A DNA stretch of 64,000 nucleotides from Gardnerella coleohominis (GTDB taxonomy: Bacteria; Actinomycetota; Actinomycetes; Actinomycetales; Bifidobacteriaceae): positions 248,001 through 312,000 of the forward strand of contig NZ_MNLH01000002.1 in NCBI RefSeq assembly GCF_002896555.1, given 5' to 3'. The notes below the pieces were generated by a model. The model was not told where the DNA came from. It was given only the letters and a program-made list of their open reading frames with translations, and made no database searches. Of this stretch, positions 11,343 to 14,257 are shown in pieces (position 1 is the stretch's first letter; every line of letters begins with the position of its first letter). The position numbers and the translations under genes are program-made.

Positions 11343-11348
11343 TATAAT
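11343..11348 (+). promoter_or_regulatory. Candidate -10 for the surface-protein leader
   Basis: A consensus TATAAT preceded by TTG; the -35 is poor. A second candidate is TTGACA at 11377-11382 with a weak CAAAAT 17 nt downstream. Either would put the repeat tract in the 5' leader. Confidence 0.4.
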
Positions 11349-11386
11349 CGGTGCGTTAAAAAGTTATGCATAAAGGTTGACAATCC

Positions 11387-11485
11387 ATGGAAATACTGAC
11401 AAAATCCTCGCAGGCAGGCAGGCAGGCAGGCAGGCAGGCAGGCAGGCAGCATAGCTCTGTCTCTTTTTTCCGTAGAATTTTTTAA
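11387..11485 (+). CDS. Short leader ORF containing the GCAG repeat tract
   Basis: ATG at 11387, 32 codons, TAA at 11483-11485. The middle of the peptide is a QAGR repeat encoded by the tetranucleotide tract. A modest AAAGG lies 10 nt upstream. The stop codon touches the first base of the perfect hairpin at 11485. Adding one repeat unit would move the stop to TAG 11452-11454; removing one would carry translation through the hairpin arm to TAG at 11511-11513. Expression of this ORF is not demonstrated; it may be only an untranslated leader. Confidence 0.35.
   Translation: MEILTKSSQAGRQAGRQAGRQHSSVSFFRRIF
11410..11449 (+). repeat. Tetranucleotide tract (GCAG)10
   Basis: Ten perfect tandem copies of GCAG. 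Tracts of this kind change length by slipped-strand mispairing, and a tetranucleotide change alters reading frame. Confidence 0.95.
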
Positions 11486-11536
11486 TAGGCAGAAACATAT
11501 ACCTGATGGATAGGTATATGTTTCTGCCTATTTTTA
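11485..11536 (+). terminator. Perfect 20-bp hairpin terminator/attenuator before the surface gene
   Basis: Arms 11485-11504 and 11512-11531 are perfectly complementary (ATAGGCAGAAAC facing GTTTCTGCCTAT) around a 7-nt loop, followed by TTTT. It lies between the repeat-tract ORF and the surface-protein start, where it would stop most transcripts unless overridden. Confidence 0.8.
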
Positions 11537-11575
11537 TGCAATTTTTCAAAGCAGTAATATAAATCATTTGAATAT

Positions 11576-14257
11576 ATGGAAGATATAAAAATAAAAAATA
11601 GAGATGAGATGAAAATGAAAATGAAAATGAAAAGGATAACGGGCCTACTTCTTGCCCTATTTATGACCATGGGTTGTCTGTCTTTAAATCCAATAGCTAG
11701 CTATGCGAATGACACGAACGAGAAGACCTTTAATATCAATGCTGGTAGTGTAAATATAACACAAAACGGTAATTATAAGATTGAAGGAACAGGTACAGCA
11801 ACGTCAAATACGATTAGTGTGACAGGAAGTAATATCAAGGCTAAGATTATCCTAAAAAATGTAAACATTGATGTATCTAATCAGGATGAACAACAGGCTT
11901 TTCTTGCAAAAGATTATAATCAATCTAATGTTCATTTAACGATAATATTAGAAGGAACAAATTCGTTGAGGTCAAGTGACAGTTGGGCTGGGTTAACATG
12001 GAACAATTCTGATAATAGTTCAACGTTAGAAATCAAGGGTAATGGTTCTCTAACCGCAAAATGCTGGCGTCATGGTGCTGGCATTGGGTCGAGTTGGAAT
12101 AACAATGGTACAAGGAACATATCAATCACTGGTGGAACCGTAACCGCAACAGGCGGAGATGGTGCTGCTGGCATTGGTGGTGGTGAATCTGGTTTAGGGG
12201 AAAACATTACAATCTCTGGTGGAACTGTAACCGCAACAGGCGGATATCAAGCTGCTGGCATTGGTGGTGGTAATCATGGTTCAGGAGAAAACATCAAAAT
12301 CTCTGGTGGAACTGTAACCGCAACAGGTGGAACTTTTGGTGCTGGCATTGGTGGTGGTGAAGGGGGTTCAGGGAAAAACATCAAAATCACTGGTGGAACC
12401 GTAACCGCAACAGGCGGTGCTCTTGCTGCTGGCATTGGTGGTTGTCGTTGGGGTTCAGGAGAAAACATTACAATCACTGGTGGAACAGTAACCGCAACAG
12501 GTGGAGGTGGTGCTGCTGGCATTGGCGGTGGTGATGCTGGTTCAGGAAGAAACATTACAATCACTGGTGGAACCGTCAAGGCAAGCAGTATCAGTACAAC
12601 GCCAACCGATGGCAAGGGTAATAACGTCTATCTTTTTAAACTGAAAAATCAGGACAGTGTGAATGAGGTAACTGTGGACAGTGGCACAAAAAATGCAAAA
12701 ACATTCACAAGAGCAGGCAACCACCCTGACAGAGATACCGCATTTTATCTGTATCTGACAGGAAAAGACCATGACCTTGATACTTCTAAAAAGAAATATA
12801 AGGCAGAATGGAATAATACTACGAATACATTTACTACTAAATTTGACCCGAATGATGTAAAAAGTATGACGGTAACAACACAGCCTTCAAAGTTGAGTTA
12901 CACGGAGGATGACCAACTAGATTTATCTGGGCTTGTTGTCACGTTAACTGATGATCAGGGCAAAACAAAGGAAGTGAAACCTACTGACTTTACGGCTAAT
13001 AATATCAATGCAGATCCTGAGAATGGAGCAGTATTAAAGCTAGGCCATAATGAAAAGACTGTTACCTTAAAGAGAGGAAACTTGACTGCAACTACAGATG
13101 CGTTACAGGTGAAGCAGAGAGTGTTTGACCCAACTCGTGTAACGTCTAGGACAATCACACACCAGCCTAAGTTGAGTTATACGGAGGGAGAGAGGCTAGA
13201 TTTAACGGGGCTTGTTGTAACGTTAACAGATTATCAAGGCTTAAGAAAAGAGGTGCCATTTGCGCAATTTGAAAGATATGGAATCAATGCATATCCTGCA
13301 GATAAAACATTTTTAAAAGTAGCAGACCACAATGGGAAACCTGTTAAATTAGTAATTTATAGGCCTGGAACGATGATTCTAAGCTGGTCGGCACCAGCAG
13401 GCGTATTAAAGGTAAAAAATAAGTTTGACCCAACTCATGTAACGTCTATGACAGTCAAACACCGGCCTAGTAAGTTGAGTTATACGGAGGGAGAAAACCT
13501 AGATTTAACTGGGCTTGAAGTCACGTTAGAAGATGCTAAGGGTGTGAAAAAAGTCGTGACTCCTGCAGATTTTGAAGCGAATGGCATCAAGGCAACTCCT
13601 GAGAATGGTAAGAAACTAGAGTTAACTGATGGTGGAAAGCCTGTTAAGTTAACGAGAGGGACCTTGACTGCAGAAACAAGTGCATTACAGGTGAAGCAGC
13701 AAAGTTCTGGTTCTGGTTCTGCTGGTGGTGCTGGCGTAGGCGCAGGTTCTAGTACTGGTCATGGTTCTAGTGCTGGTATGAACGATGATGCGCCTGCTAC
13801 TTTGGATAATGGCGAGTTGAATATTCAGATTGATAGTGCTGAAAGTGATTATAAGCCTGGCAATGCTGGAGATGGATCTGGTAACGCAAACGCTGGCTCA
13901 GCTCCAGAAGTTAAGCGGTCAGATGCGGCCGTTAAGCAGTCGGCGGATACATTAGCTTTGGCGCATGCTCAGGCGGACTCTGCTGCACGCAAGCTTGCAG
14001 ATGCTCGTAAGTCGCAGCATGAGGCACCAGCTCTTAAGCCGCAGACTGAAGCACCGGCTCCTAAGTCGCAGCATGAGGCACCTGCTCCTAAGTCGCAGTC
14101 TGAAAAGCGTATTGGTATGATTCCTAAGACAGACAAATCAGCATCGTTTGCAGGCCTGATCGCATTGTATGCAGGCTTGATTGCAGTGCTTGGCTTCTCG
14201 ATTGTGGGACTTGCAATTCTTTGTAAGAAGAAAATGATGGAAGAAAACAATAAGTAA
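11576..14257 (+). CDS. Repeat-rich cell-surface protein with Ig-like domains and degenerate sortase signal
   Basis: 893 residues from ATG 11576; the ATG at 11609, first of four ATGAAA units, is an equally good start because neither has a strong ribosome site. A signal peptide (about residues 18-44, ending ASYAND) leads to a beta-helix-like region with five 29-residue repeats built on NITITGGTVTATGG and AAGIGGG (about residues 181-325). Three Ig-like repeats of about 90-100 residues follow (about 424-710), each with KLSYTEG, LDLTGL and a final ALQVK-type strand. A Ser/Gly linker and Pro/Ala/Lys-rich stalk (HEAPAPKSQ repeats) reach the C-terminal IPKTD, a hydrophobic stretch and KKK. That layout is a sortase-anchored adhesin, but IPKTD lacks the canonical Gly. 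Adhesion is inferred; no ligand is known. Confidence 0.8.
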   Translation: MEDIKIKNRDEMKMKMKMKRITGLLLALFMTMGCLSLNPIASYANDTNEKTFNINAGSVNITQNGNYKIEGTGTATSNTISVTGSNIKAKIILKNVNIDVSNQDEQQAFLAKDYNQSNVHLTIILEGTNSLRSSDSWAGLTWNNSDNSSTLEIKGNGSLTAKCWRHGAGIGSSWNNNGTRNISITGGTVTATGGDGAAGIGGGESGLGENITISGGTVTATGGYQAAGIGGGNHGSGENIKISGGTVTATGGTFGAGIGGGEGGSGKNIKITGGTVTATGGALAAGIGGCRWGSGENITITGGTVTATGGGGAAGIGGGDAGSGRNITITGGTVKASSISTTPTDGKGNNVYLFKLKNQDSVNEVTVDSGTKNAKTFTRAGNHPDRDTAFYLYLTGKDHDLDTSKKKYKAEWNNTTNTFTTKFDPNDVKSMTVTTQPSKLSYTEDDQLDLSGLVVTLTDDQGKTKEVKPTDFTANNINADPENGAVLKLGHNEKTVTLKRGNLTATTDALQVKQRVFDPTRVTSRTITHQPKLSYTEGERLDLTGLVVTLTDYQGLRKEVPFAQFERYGINAYPADKTFLKVADHNGKPVKLVIYRPGTMILSWSAPAGVLKVKNKFDPTHVTSMTVKHRPSKLSYTEGENLDLTGLEVTLEDAKGVKKVVTPADFEANGIKATPENGKKLELTDGGKPVKLTRGTLTAETSALQVKQQSSGSGSAGGAGVGAGSSTGHGSSAGMNDDAPATLDNGELNIQIDSAESDYKPGNAGDGSGNANAGSAPEVKRSDAAVKQSADTLALAHAQADSAARKLADARKSQHEAPALKPQTEAPAPKSQHEAPAPKSQSEKRIGMIPKTDKSASFAGLIALYAGLIAVLGFSIVGLAILCKKKMMEENNK
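12116..12577 (+). repeat. Five 87-bp tandem repeats within the surface-protein gene
   Basis: Units begin about every 87 bases (12116, 12203 and so on) with a partial sixth. Each encodes 29 residues, so changes in copy number keep the frame. Confidence 0.9.

Follow-up and report, generated by a model that had tools for sequence, protein, structure and literature searches.

Does the number of GCAG units in a short leader decide whether transcription continues into the surface protein gene behind it? The question is raised by a locus of Gardnerella coleohominis in a stretch of 64,000 nucleotides (contig NZ_MNLH01000002.1, positions 248,001 to 312,000). This whole stretch is called the window, and coordinates are counted from its first letter. 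A (GCAG)10 tract at 11410–11449 (+ strand, 100% match) lies wholly inside a leader open reading frame (ORF) of 32 codons at 11387–11485 (+ strand; ORF listing and frame recomputation), whose TAA adjoins the first base of a perfect hairpin with a T-run. A surface protein gene follows. This order, described in an earlier note on this DNA, was confirmed by sequence, ORF and terminator scans. We consider it moderately probable that this locus works as a phase-variable transcription attenuator like that of Streptococcus gallolyticus pil1.

Anatomy of the leader

Runs of at least five GCAG units occur at one place only in the genome (6 overlapping matches), and a reversed control gave 0. The box AAAGG (11372–11376, + strand), a possible Shine-Dalgarno sequence of the leader ORF, lies 10 nt 5′ of its ATG. 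Judged from sequence only, the same box at the same distance is found in 9/9 related leaders with an intact ATG.

The terminator hairpin and its T-run occupy 11484–11536 (+ strand; stem-loop 11484–11532), between the leader ORF and the surface gene. The terminator scan, which counts at most 20 pairs, gave 20 pairs at 11485–11531, and direct counting gave 21 pairs at 11484–11532 with a loop of 7. The earlier description of a perfect hairpin with a T-run was borne out, and its length of 20 bp from 11485 was revised to 21 bp. This is the sole perfect stem of at least 16 bp (loop 3–12) in the window, and 20 mononucleotide shuffles gave 0. Its predicted folding energy is −31.0 kcal/mol. Between 11000 and 12000 the scan returned 4 rows of terminator-like sites, 2 of them the main hairpin, compared with a shuffle mean of 0.3. 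It also found a small hairpin, AGGCAG-N7-CTGTCT with a T-run, at 11444–11469 (+ strand). The left arm of the small hairpin is the tract end, and the early stop described below sits in its loop.

Two promoter-like boxes lie 5′ of the tract. P1 (TAGTCA-17-TATAAT, 11320–11348, + strand, promoter scan) has a predicted start at about 11355, 5′ of the leader ATG. Since 11000–12000 holds 5 promoter-like matches against a shuffle mean of 3.9, P1 is weak taken alone. P2 (TTGACA-17-CAAAAT, 11377–11405, + strand, boxes at 11377 and 11400, TG before the second box) has a predicted +1 in the first repeat unit and competes with P1 as leader promoter. The 40-bp tract is 3′ of the CAAAAT box and not between promoter boxes, so the locus is not a classic promoter-spacer switch. 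Nor is it an in-gene frameshift switch, because all three window leader frames end 5′ of the surface gene.

Reading frames and the pil1 precedent

Frame ends were counted from 11485, and each leader was scored with one unit fewer, as found and with one unit more. In the window, n = 10 ends at 0 (11485), n = 11 at −31 (11454) and n = 9 at +28 (11513), the same three stops that the earlier note had derived.

In the attenuator that we favor, the transcript would begin 5′ of 11387 and ribosomes would translate the short leader frame. Slippage of the GCAG units would shift this frame; the length differences seen separate strains rather than cells of one clone. Two of the three frames would bring the ribosome close to, into or past the 21-bp hairpin and so block its formation, and RNA polymerase would then transcribe the surface gene. 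With the remaining frame, to judge from the pil1 experiments, the ribosome would be released about 30 nt earlier, the hairpin would form and transcription would end.

According to Danne et al. (2014, PMC3894217), the mechanism of pil1/pil3 was proven with mutants, chloramphenicol and reporters. When pil1 has 22 GCAGA units, its leader peptide ends 39 or 49 bp 5′ of the terminator and expression is low. With 21 units the peptide stops 4 bp before the terminator, with 23 it stops within it, and expression is high. The high state was lowered by chloramphenicol, and expression was low when the leader start codon and binding site were changed.

The Gardnerella leader shares four features with pil1/pil3. 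A leader ORF with an ATG and a binding-site-like box encloses the whole repeat tract. The unit is not a multiple of three, and its count varies between strains here (GCAG 10/9/15; GACA 16/20 in the leader family). An intrinsic terminator, predicted here, stands between the leader ORF and the gene for a surface structure. The stop of one frame lies at least 28 nt upstream, and those of the others lie at or in the hairpin. The systems differ in the unit, which is GCAGA (22 or 13) in S. gallolyticus pil1/pil3 and GCAG or GACA in Gardnerella leaders. By our own arithmetic the ATG abuts the tract in pil1/pil3, whereas it is about 8 codons away here. The small post-tract hairpin and the second promoter-like box belong to the Gardnerella leader only, pil1/pil3 being from Streptococcus. 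Function is proven in pil1/pil3 and inferred for the Gardnerella leader.

The design of the switch is not new, given the precedent of Danne et al. (2014, PMC3894217). The earlier note had proposed a slip-strand switch on a translation-coupled attenuator and thought its design different from that of known phase-variable tracts. The switch itself fits the anatomy, the repeat differences between strains and the pil1 precedent. The novelty does not stand, as pil1/pil3 works likewise. The state which the note gave to the present count is doubtful. Because leader frames that end at the hairpin base or close to it give high expression in the pil1 calibration, n = 10 is predicted by analogy to be ON-type (high) and n = 11 OFF-type (low).

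The leader family

A DNA search of 112 genus genomes gave leader matches in 8. G129 and G112 had short repeat-like matches only; G112 has a different leader, in which at least 12 GGCA units adjoin an assembly gap. The remaining six genomes carry eight leaders of the window's family. With downstream genes labelled by eye, the family leader stands before the same surface gene in the window's genome (G000), G022 and G132 (strain 1500E), before a small CxxC protein gene in G009, G133 and G132, and before a signal-peptide protein gene in G132. The copy in G097 is cut off before the ATG. Two further family leaders were found in IMG/VR contigs, with (GACA)16 in L451 and (GACA)20 in L475. This makes 10 leaders, nine of them besides the window's own; nine have an intact ATG and the G097 copy does not. 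Plasmid and phage records searched for the leader gave no match, and neither did IMG/VR searched for the exact hairpin core.

The comparison of tract length between strains that the earlier note proposed gave 10 units before the surface gene in the window, 9 (36 bp) in G022 (locus L008) and 15 (60 bp) in 1500E. The T-run after the tract also varies between strains (6 vs 5). Identity to the window leader is 97–98% in G022 and 90% in 1500E, the latter scored with its longer tract. In the paralogues, the conserved block extends past the terminator toward the ribosome binding site.

The long-tract leaders (window, G022, 1500E, L451 and L475) all have TTGACA as the first box of P2, and their hairpins range from −26.2 to −31.0 kcal/mol. 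In the four short-tract leaders that keep the ATG, this box reads TTGGCA and the hairpins range from −10.7 to −19.0 kcal/mol. The hairpin of the cut-off G097 copy has −21.7 kcal/mol. TTGACA thus goes with long tracts in 5/5 and with short tracts in 0/4 (1 in 126, Fisher's test); the copies are related, and two are identical over the compared stretch. The TATAAT of P1 is kept in 6/9 intact-ATG leaders (window, L008, L031, L451, L475 and L009). The second box of P1 reads TATGAT in L038 and L042 and is absent in L041.

In 9/9 intact-ATG leaders, the stop of one frame falls 29–31 nt 5′ of the hairpin, with the remaining two frames ending at −10, −9, 0, +7, +28 or +86. As found, the window ends at 0, and G022, the 1500E surface gene leader, the 1500E signal-peptide gene leader and L475 end at −10. 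G009 ends at +7, the small gene leaders of G133 and G132 at +86, and L451 at −30. The natural alleles span several frame states, with L451 (n = 16) in the early-stop state. The early stop after the tract is retained with varying letters: mostly TAG, TAA in the 1500E signal-peptide leader and TGA in the GACA leader of G097.

The pattern of the small hairpin occurs in 9 places in 6/112 genus genomes, 8 of which are leaders of the window's family. The ninth is the GACA-tract leader of G097, and a reversed control gave 1 match, in G107. The G097 leader (locus L045, 1301–1584, − strand) has (GACA)21, TTGACA 5′ of the tract and the same small post-tract hairpin. Its tract precedes another surface-type gene, which itself has an early in-frame stop.

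RNA folding

Folding was calculated for nine n values from 3 to 20, with the RNA starting from P1 or P2. An effect of repeat number on terminator folding was sought over this range and none was found: the least pair probability was 0.76–0.77 from P1 and 0.99 from P2. A simulated ribosome footprint at the n = 10 stop left −10.2 or −6.9 kcal/mol of the hairpin, and at the n = 9 stop nothing of the hairpin remained. At −10 stops the effect varied with the footprint assumed (−30.4 or −18.3 kcal/mol remaining). As modelled, folding supports the ribosome step of the attenuator.

Distant parallels

An IMG/VR scan for (GCAGA)5 gave 52 stretches. Two loci, L222 and L240, have a promoter-like TTGAAA-17-TATAAT, then TTGACAGCCATG, a leader frame, a terminator and a secreted-type protein. 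L222 has (GCAGA)13, a terminator of −32.9 kcal/mol and frames ending at −47/+2/+24. L240 has (GCAGA)11, a terminator of −34.6 kcal/mol and frames ending at −65/+2/+15. As found, L222 is predicted by the same calibration to be in an ON-type frame and L240 in an OFF-type frame. The L222 protein has Beta_helix_3 and Ig-like domains, as does the window protein; the L240 protein is Ig-like with no Beta_helix_3. Close relationship of these proteins to the window protein is not supported by BLASTP (best E values 0.049 and 0.78).

The motif ACTTGACAGCCATG occurs in at least 120 IMG/VR stretches; L222 and L240 carry it but lie outside the matches listed. Among those listed, 0/120 had a repeat tract within 80 nt of ACTTGACAGCCATG; the presence of the box is thus by itself no predictor of a tract.

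Points against the proposed attenuator

Several results weigh against an attenuator. Covariation in the leader hairpins does not exceed that of shuffles (93.5% of cells paired vs 93.4%), and the covariation test found 0 hairpin pairs changed on both sides. Before the tract, the codons of the paralogues differ by amino-acid-changing substitutions only, which gives no indication that the leader peptide is under selection. The (GACA)21 leader of G097 is without a comparable terminator and breaks the frame rule. A transcript from P2 would begin within the tract and so lack the start codon of the leader. Dinucleotide-shuffled spacers obey the frame rule in 17–33% (window, L451, L222 and L240). Given these shuffles, the frame rule is modest support and not decisive.

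TTGACA ahead of repeat tracts

P2 also belongs to a wider pattern. Tract scans of IMG/VR gave at least 120 stretches for GACA, 78 for GCAG, 52 for GCAGA, 52 for AAGC and 9 for GACGA. Homology clusters were used rather than raw contexts, 119/304 tracts being in one cluster. Among the tracts listed for these five units, TTGACA lies 28–37 bp 5′ of the first unit in 14/76 clusters. It lies elsewhere in the 120 bp in 6 clusters, and permuted hexamers 28–37 bp out gave a mean of 0.31 and a maximum of 4. A −10-like box (A at 2, T at 6) follows 16–18 bp on from TTGACA in 49/54 contexts, compared with 25.5% in the control. With this geometry the tract begins near the predicted +1, and P2 of the window fits. 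Example loci with TTGACA before GACA, GCAGA and AAGC tracts are L222, L392, L431, L440, L446 and L460. On L210, L211 and L223, GCAGA and GACA tracts share one contig, each with TTGACA 30–33 bp upstream.

The geometry is rare for GCAG tracts (1/59 contexts; 2/65, both on one contig; 2/57 with a looser box) and was found in 0/8 contexts of GACGA. Read on the opposite strand, TTGACA stood 28–37 bp before the tract in 3/88 for TGTC, 0/36 for TCTGC, 0/58 for CTGC and 0/36 for GCTT. AAGC, meant as negative control, was positive in several clusters, so the association is not unit-specific. Upstream open frames of at least 100 codons place 61/85 such tracts (loci L200–L545, not deduplicated) inside genes. 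Five representatives match the PAPS reductase, C5 DNA methylase, type I specificity, N6 methylase plus type I specificity, and reverse transcriptase families. Within the PAPS-reductase group, TTGACA partly overlaps codons for a recurring YLT motif, and in several members TTGCAA or TTGCGA takes its place. Because of this coding overlap, raw context counts overstate the association. Long GACA tracts were found in 1 of 396 phylum genomes scanned, which leaves no independent chromosomal test.

One tentative explanation, which we consider doubtful, is that a TTGACA-16/18-NANNNT promoter is aimed at the tract and creates such tracts or maintains their instability. Transcription would start on the first unit and drive slippage, making the promoter a programmed mutator besides or instead of an mRNA promoter, both in Gardnerella leaders and in phage or prophage DNA-modification genes. 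The suggestion comes from the promoter-like boxes inside such genes, where a promoter would be of no obvious use for expression. Against it, the box alone brings no tract (0/120 of the sites listed), part of the signal in one gene family is coding, and tracts are longer with a perfect TTGACA for GCAGA only (p 0.009; GACA 0.13, AAGC 0.65, GCAG 0.89). No description of the geometry was found in literature searches on repeats, promoters and phages, most subscription papers lying outside coverage. It is possibly novel, and it is unexplained.

Alternative explanations

P2 could be the main promoter and the tract the first transcribed stretch, the repeat count tuning escape, pausing at the small hairpin or RNA stability, with the leader untranslated. 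We think this unlikely. The recurrence of TTGACA with a −10-like box at such a distance in unrelated loci (14/76 clusters), the A and T in 49/54 −10-like boxes against 25.5% in the control, and the tracking of long tracts by TTGACA in the family (5/5 vs 0/4) speak for it. However, the P1 TATAAT is conserved in 6/9 leaders, and the ATG and AAAGG box are kept in all nine. Any transcript from P2 would run into the terminator, which forms regardless of repeat number, and a leader role is unlikely in the 61/85 recurrent cases (not deduplicated) that lie inside genes. The same indifference of the terminator, equally probable over n = 3 to 20 with the RNA starting from P1 or P2, tells against a ribosome-free antiterminator in which tract units pair with the right arm of the terminator (CTGCC) or with the CTGTCT arm. 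Such pairing is available, as GGCAG can pair with CTGCC and, if one G-U is allowed, with CTGTC, but we give this explanation hardly any credence.

Two further explanations leave the surface gene outside the control of the tract. The hairpin might merely end a short RNA (a small RNA or a dead leader), the surface gene having its own promoter 3′ of 11536. Terminators are normally transcript ends, and copies with decayed hairpins do stand before other genes. Yet a simple scan of 11536 to 11609 found nothing promoter-like, stronger hairpins accompany longer tracts, and the conserved block of the paralogues runs on beyond the terminator; we regard this explanation as quite improbable. The tract might also be a neutral by-product of mutation in a relic leader, as the frame rule and the covariation are each non-significant alone. 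That five long-tract leaders jointly retain strong hairpins, TTGACA and P1, while the four short-tract copies with intact ATG show decayed hairpins and TTGACA, and a decayed P1 in 3/4, makes a relic very improbable.

Surface gene and surrounding features

The surface protein gene lies at 11609–14257 (+ strand), although the listed ORF begins at 11576. The start is probably 11609 and not the listed ATG, because in 1500E the frame from the equivalent of that ATG stops after 10 codons. Domain search gave Beta_helix_3 (1.2e-23) and Ig-like Big_3 (4.4e-12); a signal peptide and a C-terminal anchor-like tail were judged by eye. Named relatives of the gene are in G. vaginalis 1500E and PSS_7772B. At its start, (ATGAAA)4 at 11609–11633 forms a second small repeat with several in-frame ATGs.

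The upstream neighbour is a KilA-N gene (10194–11042, domain search). It is followed by an intrinsic-terminator-like hairpin at 11079–11110 (+ strand; 12 pairs, 6 of them GC, loop 8), which makes the leader likely a separate transcription unit. Elsewhere, the window (19658–19939) and L094 contain a 53/73-bp tandem repeat (AAGTAAACAAA..TCGGGG), and similar pieces were seen by eye at other places in the genome.

Other known systems

Tetranucleotide repeats in the 5′ untranslated region are known from uspA2 of Moraxella catarrhalis. We know of no leader peptide or terminator there; the likeness is that of a tetranucleotide tract in the leader of an adhesin gene. In trp-type attenuators, the position of the ribosome on the leader decides terminator formation. 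The Gardnerella leader, in contrast, has no obvious amino-acid sensing codons and needs no antiterminator, and its state would be set by DNA repeat number. Attenuation of the trp type is also described in PMC3894217.

Phase variation by homopolymers is described in Gardnerella, with slip-strand tracts 5′ of surface protein genes and one tract that varies between colonies (Garcia et al. 2024, PMC11287997). These are homopolymers, whereas the window leader has a tetranucleotide; the word "tetranucleotide" occurs 0 times in the main text of that paper. In the window's own genome (loci L084–L101), 6/18 tracts of nine or more G lie between −35-like and −10-like boxes spaced 16–19 bp (control 4.1%), as in TTGACT...G9...TATCTT, and 17/18 are on the + strand of contigs. 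Their sequence context points to classic promoter-spacer phase variation, a mechanism other than that of the window leader. Literature searches for Gardnerella together with phase variation, repeats, leader peptides or tetranucleotides gave no report of the window locus.

Biological meaning

The tract-at-promoter geometry raises a testable question: does the site at which transcription begins determine where repeat tracts expand in bacteria? If the attenuator is real, the pil1-type switch, described in a single Streptococcus species, would also exist in an actinobacterium of the vagina and on further contigs. This would suggest that several groups switch surface proteins randomly on and off with the genes of these proteins unchanged. 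The Gardnerella locus, with its predicted ON and OFF repeat numbers, could add colony heterogeneity beyond that of the homopolymer tracts.

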